Source: a virus. From it: a stretch of 21,410 nucleotides of DNA. Positions 9,306 through 20,662 of this stretch are shown here, piece by piece (the stretch's first letter is position 1; each line of letters opens with the position of its first letter). The translations under genes and the position numbers were made by a program. The notes beneath the pieces are model-generated. The model ran no database searches and was not told the origin of the DNA. It saw nothing but the letters and a program-made list of their open reading frames with translations. The stretch lies in the IMG/VR virus record IMGVR_UViG_3300035565_000025, positions 1 to 21,410 of that record; one strand, given 5' to 3'.

Positions 9306-11353
9306 CAGACTGCCTCCCCGGGCCTGACCGGCACGTTCGGGATCACTTCCTGCGCTGCCTGGCGGGCTCGCAGTTCCGCCATCTTCATGCCGAATTCCTG
9401 CTTCTTCGTCTCCACGTCGAGCTGCGTCGTGGCGATGTGGGCTTGGGCGTCCACCTGGGACTGCTGGATCCCGGCCTGCGCCTTGGCGGTCTCGGCCTGC
9501 CCCTTGACCTTGGCCGTCTCGAGCTTGATCGCCTCGACGGGGTTCGGCTGGGGAGGAGACGGGGGCGCGCTGGCTGCTTCCTCGAGGTCCGCCACCGCCC
9601 GGTCGATGATGCTCTCGTACCGCTCCGCGCCACGGAACTGACTGATCGATGCCTGGTAGAGCTCGACGAAGAACTTGGCGATCTTCGGGTTACCCATGAG
9701 CGGGGCCGCGTTCGCGAAGAACTGCGACGTGGCCTGCAGGATCTGCACGCCCTCCTGCTGGACGGAGTCGTAGTCCGTCATGGACAGGGAGTCCGCGTCC
9801 ACGTCGATGCGGTAGGCCGACAGGTCGCTCTTGAGCAGGGCCACCGCCTGATCGATGAGCGGCGTGTTCGGCACGTCCCCCTGCGGCGGAGGTGGAGGCT
9901 GTGGGGGCATGCCGGGCATCTGCGGCACCGGAGGAGGCTGGGGCGCTGGCATGCGCTCGGCCTGCTCGATATTCGAGCGCTTGATGAGCGTCGCCGCGTC
10001 GCACTTCGTCACGAGGATGTGCGCCCGGATCCGCTGGGCATCGGAGGCGAAGCGGGCGTAGCGGTCCTGGTCCGTCTGGGACCGCATCGAGAAGGCGCGG
10101 GCCTTGATCCGGTCGGTCGTCGCCGTCACGCGCTGCGCCTGCTGCCCGCGCATGACGTCCGAGAGCCCGAGCACCTCGGAGATGTCCGCGCGGACTAGGT
10201 TCCGCTGCTGGACGAGCTGGACGAGCGCCGCGACCTGCGGGTCGATCGGCATGATCCAGACGGGGTTCCCCATCCCGTCCTTGCCCAACAGGGCGTTCAT
10301 GTCGTCGATCGGGACGAGTGAGTTCTCGACCGCATCGTCAAGGATGCGCTTGATGCCCTCGTTCCCCTTGGCGTACGCGCCGACGACCTTGATCGCCTTC
10401 ACCAGGGCGCGGATGCGGCGCGTGTAGTTGTGCGCCTCCTCGTACAGGCTCTTGGCGAGCTGGTACGTGCTCTTGGGGATGTACTTCGCCGAGGTCGTGT
10501 TCGAGACGAGGGGGTCGGGGCCCGGGAAGAAGTTCGGCAGGCCGAGAGGGTCATCCTGGGTGTCGAGGAGCTGGCTGAACCCGGCCACGAACCAGTGGAC
10601 CTTGCGCGCCTCCTTGTCCCAGATTTCCCACACCCGGGCTCGCGCGAACACCTCCTCGATCTTCTCCTGCTGCGGGTCGTTCGCCTTGCCCTTCGTGTTG
10701 AGCGGGATCTTCGAGACGAGGTCGGCCCCGAGCGGGCCATCGAAGCGCTTGTGCAGCGCGTCCCGGCTCATGTCCGCGCCGTACGCCTCCCAGCGCTTCT
10801 CCTCCGGGGTGCGGCACGGGCTCCAGAGCAGGTCGCGCCAGTTGACGTGGTCGGTCTCCACGTCCTCGCCCGTCTTGACCGGATCCTCACCCTCCTCTTC
10901 GGCCTCGTCCTCGGTGAAGCCGTAGCGGAACCGGATCTGCCCGCAGTCGGTGAGGAGCCAGTCCTGCTTGGCGTTCCCGAGGGCTCGGCGGAAGCCGTCG
11001 GAGTCGCGCTCGATGTCCGTGTTGAGGAGCCGCTCGAGGATCTCGGCCGAGACGCGGGCCACGTCGTCCTTGGCGTCGGCGTAGCGGCGGCGGGCGCGGA
11101 TTCTGGGCTCACCCGAGAGCGTCGCGGCCTTCGTCTGGACGTCGGCGAACCAGAGGTTAAGGCGGGCCTTCTTGAACGTCTTGCCCTCGCCTAGGTACTC
11201 CTTGATCGACTCGTCCCCCTCCTTGCGGAAGTCCTCGAGCGCCTTCTCCGCGGTGGTGATCTCGGTCTGCCAGCGCGCCTGCTGGCCTTCGGGGGTCTCT
11301 GCGTACTCGGACTTGGACTCGACGCTGCTGGCGTTGTCGGGATCCTGGCTCAC
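9305..11353 (-). CDS. Portal protein (P22-like class)
   Basis: A 682-residue portal, forming the dodecameric vertex through which DNA is packaged and ejected. Start at GTG 11353, overlapping the large terminase stop by four bases (GTGA); the frame ten codons upstream lies within terminase. Length matches P22-type portals (about 700). Landmarks: a helical N-terminus (FRKEGDESIKEYLGEG), KARLNLWFADVQTKAATLSGEPRIRARRR (~55-83), the wing with NWRDLLWSPCRTPEEKRWEAYG, and the crown-stem region with FFPGPDPLVSNTTSAKYIPKS then YTRRIRALVKAIKV. Residues ~480-505 are a Pro-rich loop. The final ~80 residues form a long Gln/Ala/Lys helix like the P22 barrel. Adjacent to terminase as expected. Confidence 0.9.
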   Translation of the reverse strand: MSQDPDNASSVESKSEYAETPEGQQARWQTEITTAEKALEDFRKEGDESIKEYLGEGKTFKKARLNLWFADVQTKAATLSGEPRIRARRRYADAKDDVARVSAEILERLLNTDIERDSDGFRRALGNAKQDWLLTDCGQIRFRYGFTEDEAEEEGEDPVKTGEDVETDHVNWRDLLWSPCRTPEEKRWEAYGADMSRDALHKRFDGPLGADLVSKIPLNTKGKANDPQQEKIEEVFARARVWEIWDKEARKVHWFVAGFSQLLDTQDDPLGLPNFFPGPDPLVSNTTSAKYIPKSTYQLAKSLYEEAHNYTRRIRALVKAIKVVGAYAKGNEGIKRILDDAVENSLVPIDDMNALLGKDGMGNPVWIMPIDPQVAALVQLVQQRNLVRADISEVLGLSDVMRGQQAQRVTATTDRIKARAFSMRSQTDQDRYARFASDAQRIRAHILVTKCDAATLIKRSNIEQAERMPAPQPPPVPQMPGMPPQPPPPPQGDVPNTPLIDQAVALLKSDLSAYRIDVDADSLSMTDYDSVQQEGVQILQATSQFFANAAPLMGNPKIAKFFVELYQASISQFRGAERYESIIDRAVADLEEAASAPPSPPQPNPVEAIKLETAKVKGQAETAKAQAGIQQSQVDAQAHIATTQLDVETKKQEFGMKMAELRARQAAQEVIPNVPVRPGEAV

Positions 11354-12753
11354 TCGGCGGTCTCCCGGTCGAACTGCTCCCACGCCTCATCAAGGGTCGG
11401 CGGCACGGGTAGAGAGTAGTCCTTCCTGGGCTCATGTTTCTCGGGCCGGGTCAGGCGCTCCGAGTGCCGGTAGACCACTGCCACCCCACGGAAGGCGTCG
11501 GCTGGGTGCGAGCTCCAGTCGTGCTCGGGCTGATTCGTGAAGACCTTGCGGTCCTCGTCCCAGCCGTAGTGGTACGCCTTGAGCGCCTCGATGCCCTCCT
11601 GCGACCGGGGATGGAAGCGGACGGCCTTCTGCAAGAGCCAGCGGCCCGCCTGGATGCCCTCGAGGAACGACACCTCCGGGTAGATCGAGACGTTCTCGTA
11701 CCCCCAGCGCTTGACGCAGTCCTCGAGCACCGAGACGCCGGTGACGAGGCCCCCATGGCTCCTCGCGTCATGCGGCAGCCAGTGCTTGACCGGAGTGACA
11801 CCCAGGGCCCTGCAGCGCTGCTCGACCTCGTCCTGGTAGTGGGTCAGCGTCTTGCCGTGGTTCTCGTAGTAGTCGAGCAGGTCGATCCCGTCCTCGGTCG
11901 CCGCCCACAGCCAGAAGCAGGTCGCATCCCCGTGCGCCCCTGCTCCGCCGAGGTCCCAGGTCGTGAATACCCGCGTCTTGCTCTCGAACTCACAGATCCG
12001 GCCCGCCTTCTCGATCGCCTCGATGAGGTCGCCCCAGACCGAGCCCACGTTCGCCGCGGTCCAGTCGCAGAGGTACTCCTGCCTGATCAACGCCTCGTCC
12101 TTGCCCGCTGCTCGCTCGGCGGCCAGCGTCTCATCGGGCGGGTAGGCGTTCGTGTCGTAGAGCGTGAGGAGCTGGGCGAAGTAGTTCGGGTTTCCGGCCT
12201 TCATCTGCGCAACGAAGTTGTCGAACTTGCGCTTGCCGTGGTTGTTGCCGCGGGGCGTGTAGACGTACGCCTCCCACCCCTTGTTCTCCATGAGCATCGG
12301 ACTTATGAGGTCGGCAGCTTTCGGCCGGGCGATGCTGTACTCGCTGTGCAGCACGCCCACCGGGCCGGCGCCGACGGTCTCGATCTTGTCGGTGCCCACG
12401 ATGCGGTAGATTGAGCCGTTCTTGAGCTCGATGCGCATCTGCTGGTTGTCCCGGGCCCGGATCTGCTCGGGAGGGAACATGAGATCGACGATGCGATCCC
12501 CTGCGTCGGTGAAGCCCTCCCACACGGCCTTGCGACCCTGCTCGAAGGTCGGGTAGGTGTGCCAGTAGGCGCCTACCCTGCGCCAGGCGGCGACGTCGAG
12601 CACCGCCATGCCGTGCAGATCCTTGCCTCCGCGGCGATGGACTACCCAGGCAGCGCGCCGGCGTGAACCGTCGTGTCCGCCGCCGATGAAGTGCTCGATG
12701 AAGGGCTTCGCGTACCAGCGAGGCTTGAACTTCTCGCTCGGGATCGAGGGCAC
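11350..12753 (-). CDS. terL: Terminase large subunit (ATPase and nuclease)
   Basis: A 467-residue packaging motor that pumps and cuts concatemeric DNA at the portal. Start at GTG 12753, overlapping the stop of the fibre gene by one base (TAGTG). The ATPase N-domain has a phage-type Walker A, HRRGGKDL (residues 39-46), and a Walker B segment VGVLHSEYS with E138 as probable catalytic acid. The nuclease C-domain has VFTTWDLGGAGAHGDATCFW (262-281, D267), LPHDARSHGG (D329) and HPADAFR (D419), the acidic triad of the RNase H-like nuclease. Length is usual for short-tailed phage large terminases. It precedes portal directly. The upstream open extension is a shadow of the collagen gene. Confidence 0.93.
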   Translation of the reverse strand: MPSIPSEKFKPRWYAKPFIEHFIGGGHDGSRRRAAWVVHRRGGKDLHGMAVLDVAAWRRVGAYWHTYPTFEQGRKAVWEGFTDAGDRIVDLMFPPEQIRARDNQQMRIELKNGSIYRIVGTDKIETVGAGPVGVLHSEYSIARPKAADLISPMLMENKGWEAYVYTPRGNNHGKRKFDNFVAQMKAGNPNYFAQLLTLYDTNAYPPDETLAAERAAGKDEALIRQEYLCDWTAANVGSVWGDLIEAIEKAGRICEFESKTRVFTTWDLGGAGAHGDATCFWLWAATEDGIDLLDYYENHGKTLTHYQDEVEQRCRALGVTPVKHWLPHDARSHGGLVTGVSVLEDCVKRWGYENVSIYPEVSFLEGIQAGRWLLQKAVRFHPRSQEGIEALKAYHYGWDEDRKVFTNQPEHDWSSHPADAFRGVAVVYRHSERLTRPEKHEPRKDYSLPVPPTLDEAWEQFDRETAE

Positions 12754-13751
12754 TACGCCACCATCGCCGCGGTTCGTCCCGCCTCGTAGAGATTCGTGCC
12801 GTCGCTCACCCAGTTGATCACGAACACGCGAGCGGTAGTCGTGCCCGTGGCGAGCGTGGCGGTGGGCTTGAAGCCGGTCGAGAACGTGATCGTGTACGAC
12901 GTCGTGCCAGAGGTCAGGATGATGAGCTGACAGACCGTCCCCGCCGCAGGAACGGTCGTGGTGAACGAGGCGGTCGCCGTCGGCGTGACCTTGCGCGTCG
13001 AGACCGTGCCGAACGCCATCGCGGTGGACCCGTTGGCGAGAGCTCCATAGCTCGGAGCGTTGTTGCCAGGCGAGCCCTGCGCGCCGGTGCTGCCCGTCGA
13101 GCCCGTCGATCCGGTGTTGCCCTGGATGCCTTGCGCACCCGTGTCGCCCTTGACCCCCTGGATGCCCTGCACGCCTTGGATGCCCTGTGGCCCCGTGAGG
13201 TGCGGCGCGCCGGTCGTGCTGCCATCGACCGCGACCTGATCGCCCGACCACGTGAGCACCGGCGAGTGACCAGCGGCTCCCGCCGAACCTTGGGCTCCCT
13301 GCGATCCGGTATCGCCCTTGGGCCCAGCTGCTCCCGTGTCCCCCTTCGCGCCGGTCGTGCCCTGGAGACCCTGAATCCCCTGGATTCCTTGAGCTCCATC
13401 CGCCCCAGTGTCGCCTTTGGCACCTTGCGCGCCGGTCGCCCCAGTGTCGCCCTTCGCTCCCGGATCGCTTGTGTCGCCCTTTGGCCCCGTGGCGCCAGCG
13501 CTACCTTGCGCGCCCTGCAATCCTTGCGCGCCAGTGTCCCCCTTCGGACCAGCGGAGCCGGTGTCGCCCTTCACGCCCTGTGGTCCCTGCATGCCGCCGT
13601 AGGCAAGGACCGTCCAGGCGGTCGCGCCGTCCCCGACCTTGAACTTCCGGGTGTCGGTCTCGAGCCCGAACTCCCCGGTTGCGAGCACCGGGTTAGCGTC
13701 CGTCCACTGTGCCGCCGTGCCGCGTCGGAGCTGCAGTTGGACGGTCGCCAT
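12753..13751 (-). CDS. Collagen-like tail/head fibre protein
   Basis: A 332-residue fibre protein in three parts. Residues 1-53 ([36 protein letters not shown]) match the short N-terminal module of phage tail fibres related to the Mtd N-terminal domain. Residues 54-161 and 187-229 are Gly-X-Y collagen repeats (GDTG, GPQG, GIQG), interrupted at 162-186 by [16 protein letters not shown], a spacer that recurs in collagen-type phage fibres. One slip in the repeat occurs at GDTSDPG (~92-98). Residues 236-332 are a beta-rich head ending [16 protein letters not shown]. It should form a trimeric fibre for adsorption or surface decoration. It has a GGAGGAG site, and the ATG abuts the stop of the next collagen gene. 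Its place between terminase genes is unusual. Confidence 0.85.
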
Positions 13752-15720: not shown

Positions 15721-16013
15721 TTGGGCTCCTTGGCGGCGAGAGCGCGGATCTCTTCCAGCGCCCCGTCGAACTCTTCCAGCGCCCAGGGTCGTGGCGCGGA
15801 GAAGACACCCGTGGGCGCCACGGCGAAGGCCCGCCGATGAGCCTCGACGACGCGGAGCGCCTCCTTCAGCGCCTCCCGGCGTGCGTCGGCCTCGGCGGAG
15901 CGGATGTGCCCCAGGATCGCCTCGAATACTTGGCGTTCCGGAACCGCCGATGTACCGAGAGCCAATTTGAGCAGCGACCCGGCGATCTCCAGCGCTCTCT
16001 CTTCGGCGGTCAT
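15717..16013 (-). CDS. Small helical protein, unknown function
   Basis: A 98-residue acidic helical protein beginning MTAEERALEIAGSLL. ATG 16013 overlaps the helicase stop by four bases and its own stop overlaps the nuclease start by four, so it is coupled to both. Residues 1-60 are one or two long helices (FEAILGHIRSAEADARREALKEALRVV split at ~30-56). Then comes a Pro-containing loop and a final helix (EEFDGALEEIRALAAKE). Short proteins with the MTxEERAxEI opening are frequent in phage genomes, with no known function. A helicase or nuclease partner is possible from position. Confidence 0.7.
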   Translation of the reverse strand: MTAEERALEIAGSLLKLALGTSAVPERQVFEAILGHIRSAEADARREALKEALRVVEAHRRAFAVAPTGVFSAPRPWALEEFDGALEEIRALAAKEPK

Positions 16014-16996
16014 CGCTCCTCCCGGTCTTCCTGCCAGTGCTGCGCCCCTGATGCCTCTTCGGTTGGCTCGGGCATGAGTTCCGGCACGAATTCCTCGATC
16101 TCGCGCGTGAGCGGCTTCGCCTTGAGATCGACCCAGACGCCTGGCGGCCCGTCGCGACTCTTCTCGATCCGCAGCTGGACCTCGTCCTTGGGCGCCTGCG
16201 GTCCCGTCTCGAAGCGATGCAGGAATGCCACCACATCGGCGTCGGCCTCAAGCTGCCCTGAGCCGCGGAGGTCGGAAAGTTGAGGCAGGCGAGGCTTGCC
16301 GTTCGGCGTATGCTCGATGTCTCGGGTCATCTGCACAAGCGCCACGAAGTAGACGGGGAGTTCGCGCGCGATGATGGCGATCTCCTTGCTCACGTTGCCG
16401 GTACGCTCCTCGATGTTCGCACCAGGCGCTTGAACGAGGCCCACATAGTCGAGGAACACGGCGTCATACGGAGCGCGGCGGCTCGTCTCCTTGACCTGTT
16501 GGAGCGTGATCCTGCGCTGATTCCACTTCACTATCGGGAGGGAGGCGAGCCGCTCTTCCGCTTCCTTGAGCGCAGTTCGCTCGGAAAAGCTGATTGAAAT
16601 CTGACGCCGTCCAAACGCGACGATCCTCCGTTCCGGGATACCCGTGAGCCGCGAGAGGGACCACAGCGCCATTTGCTCCGGCCCCATTTCGACGCCCAGC
16701 CACAGTACCGCCTTGCCCGCCATCGCCAGATTCAGGGCCATCGACCAAGCCAAGGTCGTCTTGAACATCCCCGGCCTCGCTGCCAGGATCACGTACTTGT
16801 GCGCGCTCGGTTGCGTGTACTCCTCGAACCGAGGATAGCCGAGGAGCAGGCGATCCGGGCCGATTCTCGAGAGCCGCGCCCACATGGCCGCTGCCGATTC
16901 CAGTTCCCCCACCACCAGCGCCTCCGGCGAACGGAACCCACCACCGCGCTTCCCAAGCTCTACGACATTCGACCCTGACTGCTTCGTCGAGTCCAT
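16010..16996 (-). CDS. DnaB-type replicative helicase lacking the N-terminal domain
   Basis: A 328-residue RecA-fold helicase that would unwind DNA at the phage fork, the same job as P22 gp12. It matches the DnaB C-terminal domain: Walker A ARPGMFKTT (residues 73-81), H1a-like WLGVEM (99-104), Walker B AVFLDYVGLVQ (179-189), H3 VALVQMTR (218-225), SDLRGSGQLEADADVV (241-256), and EKSRDGPPGVW (278-288), the DnaB KxRxGxxG finger region. The DnaB N-terminal helical domain is missing. The Gly before the catalytic Lys in Walker A is Phe (M-F-K-T instead of M-G-K-T). ATG 16996 has AAGGAA four bases before it; a TAG lies eight codons upstream in frame. The first 533 bases overlap the initiator gene frame. 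Confidence 0.88.
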   Translation of the reverse strand: MDSTKQSGSNVVELGKRGGGFRSPEALVVGELESAAAMWARLSRIGPDRLLLGYPRFEEYTQPSAHKYVILAARPGMFKTTLAWSMALNLAMAGKAVLWLGVEMGPEQMALWSLSRLTGIPERRIVAFGRRQISISFSERTALKEAEERLASLPIVKWNQRRITLQQVKETSRRAPYDAVFLDYVGLVQAPGANIEERTGNVSKEIAIIARELPVYFVALVQMTRDIEHTPNGKPRLPQLSDLRGSGQLEADADVVAFLHRFETGPQAPKDEVQLRIEKSRDGPPGVWVDLKAKPLTREIEEFVPELMPEPTEEASGAQHWQEDREER

Positions 16997-17690
16997 CGGC
17001 TTCCTTCTGCGCCCAACCTAGCGCGCCTGAGACGACCTTGGCCTGACAGCGATATCCGAGCTCGAGCCGGGCGAGGAGATCGACGGGGTGGACTCCCGCC
17101 TTGAGGTTGCGGTTCAGGATGGCGTAGCCAGCGGCAGCAGAGACGGGGCCCATGCCCAGCCGGGTAGCCAGGATGTCAGCCTGGCGGGCGACCTCTTTTC
17201 GAACGGCTGAGGCCGGGAGGCCGAAGAGAGTAGTTTCTCTCTTCTGCATACCTCTGCTAGATAGTCCCGCATCGCGAGTTGATGCTGTCCCGCATCCCTG
17301 TCCCACATTTCTCGCCTCGGACTCCGACGCGGCCTGGTAAAGCTCGAAATTTACACGTCTAATTACACTTGGTCCGGATACGTTGTCCTGTCCCGCTTCG
17401 CGCTCTTGATGCTGTCCCGCATCCGTTACCAATAGCCCGGCGTCAATGGCCTCCCGGAGCGCCCTCCAGGCCGTCATCCTTGGTACCTTCTGGGTGTAGT
17501 GCCGGCCAGACAGCATCTTGGCCAAGTAGCGGACGGTGGTCGTGACCTCGCCCGCATCGTTAGCGTTCTCTTCGACCCATATGACGACGAGCTTGGCTAA
17601 AACGCTGAGGCCTCGGAAGGAGGACTCCTCACGCCAGCGCTTGCGCCAGGATTTGCGCCAGGGGCGCGTACCTTCAGGAGGAGAGCTCAC
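16464..17690 (-). CDS. Winged-helix replication initiator (lambda O / P22 gp18 functional class)
   Basis: Starts at GTG 17690, overlapping the previous stop by four bases, with GGGAG five bases upstream. The frame runs 408 codons to 16464. Residues ~25-90 form a winged helix: SFRGLSVLAKLVVIWVEENA, then TVRYLAKMLSG and PRMTAWRALREAIDAGLLV, as in phage replication initiators. Residues ~90-145 are a low-complexity linker encoding the iteron-like repeats. Residues ~150-250 are a helical domain (ASAVRKEVARQADILATRLG, ILNRNLKAG, DLLARLELGYRCQAKVV) that probably recruits the helicase. Residues 232-408 lie opposite the helicase gene and are Gly/Ala/Arg-rich like an out-of-frame shadow. The true end is therefore uncertain: a long overlap, a frameshift or an assembly error. 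Confidence 0.75.
   Translation of the reverse strand: MSSPPEGTRPWRKSWRKRWREESSFRGLSVLAKLVVIWVEENANDAGEVTTTVRYLAKMLSGRHYTQKVPRMTAWRALREAIDAGLLVTDAGQHQEREAGQDNVSGPSVIRRVNFELYQAASESEARNVGQGCGTASTRDAGLSSRGMQKRETTLFGLPASAVRKEVARQADILATRLGMGPVSAAAGYAILNRNLKAGVHPVDLLARLELGYRCQAKVVSGALGWAQKEADGLDEAVRVECRRAWEARWWVPFAGGAGGGGTGIGSGHVGAALENRPGSPAPRLSSVRGVHATERAQVRDPGSEAGDVQDDLGLVDGPESGDGGQGGTVAGRRNGAGANGAVVPLAAHGYPGTEDRRVWTASDFNQLFRANCAQGSGRAARLPPDSEVESAQDHAPTGQGDEPPRSV
17264..17423. repeat. Iteron-like repeats inside the initiator gene (putative replication origin)
   Basis: GTCCCGCATC occurs at 17264-17273, 17287-17296 and 17414-17423, with variants at 17300-17309 (two mismatches) and 17390-17399 (one mismatch). 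The copies at 17287 and 17414 extend to a 17-base identity, GATGCTGTCCCGCATCC (17281-17297 and 17408-17424), which has dyad symmetry GATGC/GCATC. Those two copies are read in different codon frames, so protein repeats cannot explain both. The two clusters flank an AT-rich patch. Lambda carries its iterons and AT-rich unwinding zone inside gene O in the same way. Confidence 0.6.
17338..17370. other. AT-rich patch between iteron clusters (candidate unwinding element)
   Basis: These 33 bases contain only 10 G or C (about 30 percent) in a window that is roughly two thirds GC. The patch lies between the repeat cluster at 17264-17309 and the one at 17390-17423, where an origin unwinding element would be expected. 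It is coding sequence of the initiator gene, read as part of its linker (RVNFELYQ). Confidence 0.5.
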
Positions 17691-18449: not shown

Positions 18450-18622
18450 CAGTTGCCCCAGCGCATCGACTGCGCCGCCCGCTGAGCCCGGCGCCGCGAG
18501 TGCTCCGCCTTCCACCGCTCCTCGGCCGTCTGGATGAGCGGCACCGCGAAGATGATGTAGAGCAGGGCGAGGATTACGAGGGCGAAGCGGGGATTCTCCG
18601 ACAACCACGCCAGGAGTGGCAT
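18449..18622 (-). CDS. 57-residue single-pass membrane protein
   Basis: Starts at ATG 18622 with GGAGG four bases upstream. MPLLAWLSENPRFALVILAL and the following LYIIFAVPLI form one transmembrane helix (about residues 12-30). It is followed by a strongly basic, Gln/Arg-rich cytoplasmic-type helix (EERWKAEHSRRRAQRAAQSMRW). Its stop overlaps the next start by one base. Size and layout fit a holin-like, inner-spanin-like or superinfection-exclusion peptide; nothing decides between these. It follows the HTH regulator by 12 bases and so should share its promoter. Confidence 0.62.
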   Translation of the reverse strand: MPLLAWLSENPRFALVILALLYIIFAVPLIQTAEERWKAEHSRRRAQRAAQSMRWGN

Positions 18623-19442: not shown

Positions 19443-20018
19443 GTGGACGAGCTAACGAAGGTCGCGCAGGAACTGGACCCCTACGTCGACGAGGAGCGCC
19501 CCGAGGTTAAGGGCCCGTGGCTCCCGGTCACGCGCCTCGACTTCGATTGGGCGTTCGAACGCCTTAGCCAGTGCCAGGGCGAGGCCGACGCGGTCGACGA
19601 GCAGTACGACGCCTGGCTCGCTCGCGTCCAGAAGCGCAGGGACGAGCTCAAGGCGCGAGCGATGCGGGGAGTGCACTTCTTCGAGGGGCGTATCAAGGTC
19701 GGCGCGCAGGCTGCCCGGGAAGCGTTGCTCAAGGGGAAGTCGAAGACCGCTACGTTCCTCTCCGGGTCGGTGAGCTGGAGGAAGCTGGGCGGGAGGCTGA
19801 CGGTCTCGGACAAGGACGCTCTGAACGAGTGGCTAGCGGCGCAGCCGATGGAGGCCGGACTCGCTCGGGTGAAGTTGGAGCCCGACATGAAGGCCATCCA
19901 AGCGCACTGCAAGGCCACTGGCGAAGTGCCGCCCGGCTGTGTCTGGGGTGAGGAGTACGAGGAAATCTACGTCAAGGCCGAGCCGCCTGCCGAGGCGCTC
20001 ACGAAGGGGACCCCGTGA
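19443..20018 (+). CDS. Mu Gam-like DNA-end-binding / host nuclease inhibitor protein
   Basis: A 191-residue protein of the Phage_Mu_Gam pattern; Mu Gam is Ku-like, binds DNA ends and blocks RecBCD-type exonuclease. GTG 19443 is preceded by GGAGGA. Signs: a long coiled-coil helix (ADAVDEQYDAWLARVQKRRDELKARAMR, residues ~47-74), RGVHFFEGRI, then the Gam-type block KSKTATFLSGSVSWRKLGGRLTVSDKDALNEWL (~99-131), a strand-turn-strand with the recurring RK and DKDAL. The C-terminal ~35 residues are a Glu/Pro tail. It overlaps the recombinase start by four bases. Together they form a recombination module: protect ends, then anneal strands. Confidence 0.8.
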   Translation: MDELTKVAQELDPYVDEERPEVKGPWLPVTRLDFDWAFERLSQCQGEADAVDEQYDAWLARVQKRRDELKARAMRGVHFFEGRIKVGAQAAREALLKGKSKTATFLSGSVSWRKLGGRLTVSDKDALNEWLAAQPMEAGLARVKLEPDMKAIQAHCKATGEVPPGCVWGEEYEEIYVKAEPPAEALTKGTP

Positions 20019-20662
20019 AGACGAGCGAGAGCATCAAGGGAATCGCAGCAGCGCTGGCCGCCGCCCAGGCCGAGATGGGCCGCGTGCTCAAGGATAAGAC
20101 CGCCCGCGTCACCATGAAGGCCGGGGGCGCGTACTCGTTCGACTACGCCGACCTTGCCACCGTGCTGGACGTGGTCAAGCCGGCGCTCTCGAAGCACGGG
20201 ATCGCCATCGTCCAGGCCGCCTCGCTCGACGCAGGCCAAGTCGTGCTCGAGACCCGGCTGGCGCACTCCTCGGGGGAGTGGATCGAATCGTCCCTGGCCG
20301 TGAAGCCCGAGGACACGGCCCCGCAGAAGATCGGCAGCGCCATCACCTACGCTCGCCGGTACGCCCTGAGTTGCATGGTCGGGGTGGCCTCGGAGGAGGA
20401 TGACGACGGGAACGCGGCCGAAGGGAACGAGGCGCGCACCGTCCAGCGGCCCCGCCCGCCCGCGCAGACCACAGCGCCCGTCCTGAACGCCCCGGTCGCT
20501 GCGCTGTGGGCCCGAGCGAAGGCCGAGTACGGCGAGGAGGCTAAGGAGCAGTTCGCCGCCGCCGCGCTCAAGGCGCTCGGAAAGGACCACCCGCTGTCGG
20601 GGACGTGGACCCCTGAGCAGACGGCCTCGGTGGAGAAGGTTCTCTTCGACATCGCGTACTAG
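20015..20662 (+). CDS. erf: ERF-family single-strand annealing recombinase
   Basis: A 215-residue Erf-type annealase, which pairs complementary single strands during phage recombination and genome circularisation (as P22 Erf). GTG 20015 overlaps the Gam-like stop by four bases. The ERF core is clear: YSFDYADLATVLDVVKPALSKHGIAI (residues 40-65), VVLETRLAHSSGEWIESSL (77-94), then QKIGSAITYARRYALSCMVGVASEEDDDGNAA (104-135), the family signature of SAxTYARRY and an acidic D-D-D-G-N end. Residues 140-165 are a Pro/Gln linker, and the C-terminal ~50 residues a helical tail that may bind a single-strand DNA-binding protein, though none is in the window. Confidence 0.93.
   Translation: MKTSESIKGIAAALAAAQAEMGRVLKDKTARVTMKAGGAYSFDYADLATVLDVVKPALSKHGIAIVQAASLDAGQVVLETRLAHSSGEWIESSLAVKPEDTAPQKIGSAITYARRYALSCMVGVASEEDDDGNAAEGNEARTVQRPRPPAQTTAPVLNAPVAALWARAKAEYGEEAKEQFAAAALKALGKDHPLSGTWTPEQTASVEKVLFDIAY

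Follow-up and report, generated by a model that had tools for sequence, protein, structure and literature searches.

Replication origins located inside the initiator gene are established for lambda and the Stx phages (PMC3349717, PMC7466680), and SPP1 oriL, which lies inside gene 38, is likewise an established intragenic origin (PMC6316719). In lambda, binding of the initiator to iterons is followed by destabilization of the neighbouring weak duplex and loading of the helicase (PMC5043065, PMC3349717), and SPP1 oriL uses the same initiator and iteron scheme with a phage DnaB-family helicase (PMC6316719). Analysis of a viral record of 21,410 nucleotides (hereafter the window, meaning this whole stretch of DNA) revealed a repeat cluster that is most likely an intragenic iteron origin of the lambda/SPP1 plan, new in its sequence and not in its principle. 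We consider it highly probable that the cluster serves a tailed phage as its origin of theta-type replication, situated in the linker-coding part of the phage's own initiator gene and working by iteron binding, strand opening and helicase loading, a reading favoured by the gene context, a survey of initiator genes, the lambda-like spacing and the flanking weak duplex. With respect to this plan, clustered direct repeats inside a coding sequence and adjacent low-stability DNA are both present; as to the host gene, the adjoining DnaB helicase is clear and the initiator is assigned through weak profile matches. The features of the locus are as follows.

16998-17690, minus strand: putative initiator gene with a GTG start at 17690 and a predicted winged-helix N-terminal part, linker and helical C-terminal part
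16010-16996, minus strand: DnaB-type replicative helicase, C-terminal domain only, the next gene downstream (Pfam DnaB_C E=4e-38; phrog_19 E=5e-44)
17414-17423, minus strand: iteron A, exact GATGCGGGAC; the GCATC after it completes the dyad GATGC-N6-GCATC
17390-17399, minus strand: iteron B, GAAGCGGGAC, one mismatch, 24 nt past A and in the same codon frame as A
17300-17309, minus strand: iteron C, AATGTGGGAC, two mismatches, the weakest of the five copies
17287-17296, minus strand: iteron D, exact GATGCGGGAC, 13 nt past C, codon frame shifted, with a dyad like that of A
17264-17273, minus strand: iteron E, exact GATGCGGGAC, 23 nt past D
17406-17424, minus strand: first copy of the 19-bp exact duplicate GGATGCGGGACAGCATCAA
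17279-17297, minus strand: second copy of GGATGCGGGACAGCATCAA, 127 nt from the first and in a different codon frame
17337-17369, no strand: AT-rich patch between the iteron clusters, containing the least stable 20-mer of the window (17346-17365)
17224-17263, no strand: second low-stability tract, abutting iteron E directly 3' in gene orientation
17223-17244, no strand: GAAGAGAG-N6-CTCTCTTC, a perfect inverted repeat at the edge of the tract 17224-17263 that is farther from the iterons

The best profile matches of the putative initiator are weak (phrog_270, E=0.0044; phrog_4617, E=0.068), both being annotated "replication initiation protein", and its match to Pfam HTH_36 (E=0.1, 12.9 bits) falls below the gathering cut-off of 25. 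The TIGR01610 model (Phage O N-terminal domain) identifies orf73 of Pseudomonas phage D3 as a true lambda O domain protein (E=1.6e-38), whereas the window protein lacks any NCBIfam match and, by its sequence, is not a member of the lambda O family. Structure prediction from the single initiator sequence without an alignment was uninformative (pLDDT 43), and comparing its profile with those of other initiators gave an alignment of just 35 columns (E=0.23). The third-position GC profile revealed that the initiator coding signal ends near 17000, though the frame stays open to 16464, running in a frame different from that of the helicase and with no stop before the helicase start at 16996. Beyond 17000 the third-position GC of this frame falls to about 0.5; the open stretch (16464-17000, minus strand) reflects an indel close to the end of the gene, whether natural or from assembly, or else a long and unusual overlap. 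Scans for Rfam families and tRNAs returned nothing.

Elsewhere in the window, Gam-like end-protection and Erf-like annealing proteins are encoded in tandem at 19443-20662 (plus strand), forming a recombination module that points away from the replication genes, and the large terminase subunit at 11350-12765 (minus strand) is 47% identical to that of Myxococcus phage Mx9. Other terminase relatives exist, and none of the 22 such records tested carried a DnaB helicase match or this initiator, which suggests a mosaic replication module. The initiator had no close relative among 50,697 phage records, viral contigs or genomes, and searches of viral contigs and genomes for the helicase returned no close relatives and only distant ones (28-33%). 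Exact 18-mer matches in eight viral contigs led to no demonstrated origin, and none of these contigs carries a cluster of the 10-mer; tblastn in those eight contigs recovered no relative of the initiator, the helicase or the Erf protein, and one weak match (L004) falls in an apparent tape-measure gene. The locus gives a precise origin candidate in a lineage of phages for whose initiator no close relative could be detected.

Within 160 bp (17264-17423) the minus strand, on which the gene is encoded, has five copies of GATGCGGGAC, three of them exact, one with a single mismatch and one with two, and these bear out the five copies or near variants that a sequence-only reading of this DNA had placed at 17264, 17287, 17300, 17390 and 17414. 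Their spacing from A to E is irregular (24, 90, 13 and 23 nt). A GGGAC core is found once in each of the five iterons and nowhere else on the sense strand of the initiator gene, and the three exact copies, all in the cluster, are the only ones in the entire 21.4-kb record. When the 10-mer was counted against shuffled sequence, as the sequence-only reading had proposed, the bare count with at most one mismatch was not rare (6 in the window against 3.1 expected, with 10 of 100 shuffles reaching 6), and it is the clustering of the 10-mer, not its bare count, that is unusual. Among exact repeats whose copies lie within 200 bp of each other, the 19-bp pair is the longest in the window; 50 dinucleotide shuffles gave a maximum of 14. 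The pair sits within a 35-bp gapped match between the A-B and D-E blocks. Given this match, which has one indel, the locus has a duplication in its past, and since the dyads of A and D are copies of one duplicated block, the dyad counts as a single event. Among 19 window genes tested, the initiator gene has the top repeat score (z=8.3). The other high score (z=6.5) belongs to a collagen-like Gly-X-Y repeat protein adjoining the terminase (12753-13751, minus strand), in which the top spacings are all multiples of three.

Evaluating such repeats more broadly, we surveyed 66 initiator/helicase pairs plus the window gene, picked by helicase similarity alone and blind to repeats, with viral loci taken for helicases similar to an alignment that included the window helicase and named phages taken through a helicase search. 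Direct repeats in the ORF just upstream of each helicase were scored relative to dinucleotide shuffles, with a threshold of z=4. Scores above this threshold were obtained for 35 of the 67 upstream genes (window included; the upstream ORF was chosen automatically and some may not be initiators) and for none of the 67 adjacent helicases (Mann-Whitney p=5e-11), and after merging of similar genes repeat clusters were present in 27 of 48 sequence clusters. In the same test, lambda O as positive control reached z=6.2 and lambda P z=1.5. The surveyed repeat clusters lie mostly at 0.35-0.6 of gene length and their spacings peak at 23-24 nt, and the two blocks of the window have internal spacings of 24 and 23 nt. 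In 27 of the 31 genes tested, the 45 nt that follow the repeats were less stable as duplex than the average of the gene (p=1.5e-5); the same held in front of the repeats in 18 of 31 (p=0.02). The survey suggests that initiator genes adjoining DnaB helicases commonly carry mid-gene iterons with 23-24 nt spacing, followed by a weak tract, and this combination of mid-gene iterons and weak tract could serve origin prediction in uncultivated phages.

Compared with the described systems, the window resembles the lambda and Stx origins in its mid-gene repeats, dyad-containing units, 23-24 nt spacing (the annotated lambda iterons are spaced 20, 24 and 23 nt) and adjacent low-stability tract, as well as in having an initiator with an N-terminal DNA-binding part followed by a gene that serves the helicase step. 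It differs from lambda in that the iteron sequence is unrelated, that two clusters are split by an AT patch where lambda has one tandem array, and that the full dyad is present in only two of five iterons, whereas every lambda iteron is a near-perfect inverted repeat of 18-19 bp; the gene after the initiator encodes the loader P in lambda and a DnaB-type helicase in the window. The sequence-only reading had likened the plan to that of lambda ori, and this likeness holds for the mid-gene repeats, the spacing and the weak flank, but does not extend to the protein, which the TIGR01610 comparison places outside the lambda O family. SPP1 oriL shares with the window the repeats and an AT-rich unwinding element inside the gene for the origin-binding protein and a phage-encoded DnaB-family helicase (PMC6316719), but in SPP1 there is also oriR, a second origin, and the loader is a separate protein, gp39; the likeness to the window drawn here is one of layout. 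Pseudomonas phage D3 (orf73/orf74) and Myxococcus phage Mx9 (p49/p50) likewise encode a DnaB-type helicase in the gene after the initiator; in D3 a 23-nt palindromic repeat occurs three times in the initiator linker, and Mx9 has repeats plus a purine-rich tract there, though the iterons of both differ from those of the window.

The AT patch that the sequence-only reading had described between the two clusters is real, as its 20-mer minimum attests, but that reading overlooked the tract at 17224-17263 behind the last repeat. Both regions stand out, with 17224-17263 and 17334-17373 being two of the three least stable 40-mers in the window, and the former appears the likelier unwinding element because weak duplex lies mostly behind the repeats in the surveyed phages. 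Cumulative GC skew, which the sequence-only reading had suggested checking for a turn at the iteron locus, reaches its minimum at 18523, about 1.1 kb from the iterons and near a divergent regulatory region; gene orientation also switches near 18523, so the skew is confounded and neither supports nor excludes an origin at the iterons. We propose that the predicted N-terminal winged helix of the initiator would bind the GATGCGGGAC iterons, probably as dimers at the dyad-bearing copies A and D, that the assembled complex would strain the adjacent weak duplex at 17224-17263, possibly also that at 17337-17369, until it opens, and that the phage's own DnaB-type helicase, encoded next door, would be loaded at the opened duplex. 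A bipartite arrangement, with clusters A-B and C-D-E flanking a central unwinding patch and the DNA opened between two complexes, seems to us unlikely; it would depart from lambda, which opens DNA on one side of a single array. The 21.4-kb record, perhaps a fragment, leaves room for a second origin beyond its ends.

This repetition could also arise if a 35-bp piece of flexible linker had been copied recently and neutrally within the gene, with one indel and no replication function. Linkers tolerate insertions, the A-B and D-E blocks do align with a single gap, and no relatives were found that would show retention; against this, iteron C is not part of the duplicated blocks, which themselves contain additional core copies (B and E), the cluster is located where unrelated initiator genes carry repeats, two of the window's three weakest duplex stretches flank it, and the third-position GC bias is relaxed over the repeats (0.50-0.56, recovering afterwards), such that we regard a neutral duplication as improbable. 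A role in regulation, whether in initiator autorepression or as an operator for another phage regulator, is very improbable as the sole purpose of the repeats: clustered sites bearing dyads are typical of operators too, and binding of the initiator could also control its own operon, yet the sites are buried in the coding sequence at over 260 nt from its start, and nowhere else in the window, the divergent regulatory region near 18.9 kb included, is there an exact copy.

We find it scarcely credible that the DNA repetition merely follows a [DEN]-[AV]-G-Q peptide in the linker. One codon frame is common to four of the five iterons, which encode DAGQ, EAGQ, NVGQ and DAGL, and this sharing limits the argument from frame to DNA-level selection that the sequence-only reading had made; only the copy at 17287 (D) is shifted. 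At that copy, however, 19 identical bases translate as GCGTAS, against DAGQHQ in the first block, and because the same bases are read in two frames the repetition there is not peptide-driven; the two frames had been recognized correctly, whereas the identity, given as 17 bases, is 19 bp long. Synonymous-codon shuffles, which keep the encoded protein unchanged, also never attained the ungapped repeat score of the gene (19 observed; maximum 15, with 0 of 2,000 shuffles reaching 19). Common spacings in other phages, for example 23 nt, are moreover not multiples of three.

Returning to the intragenic iteron origin that we favour, no general purine bias was found behind the repeats of the surveyed genes (p=0.66). 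In several unrelated phages (L052:1935-1976, L095 and L098) the iterons are shortly followed by purine-rich repeats in tandem, about 12 nt long (ACAGAGACTAC-like), and the window contains the loosely similar GCAGAGGTATGCAGAAGAGAGAAACTAC; such repeats may be a motif for single-strand binding in the unwinding element. Short TTCG-loop hairpins lie shortly behind the iteron region in both D3 (L020:1430-1455) and Mx9 (L047:23360-23385).
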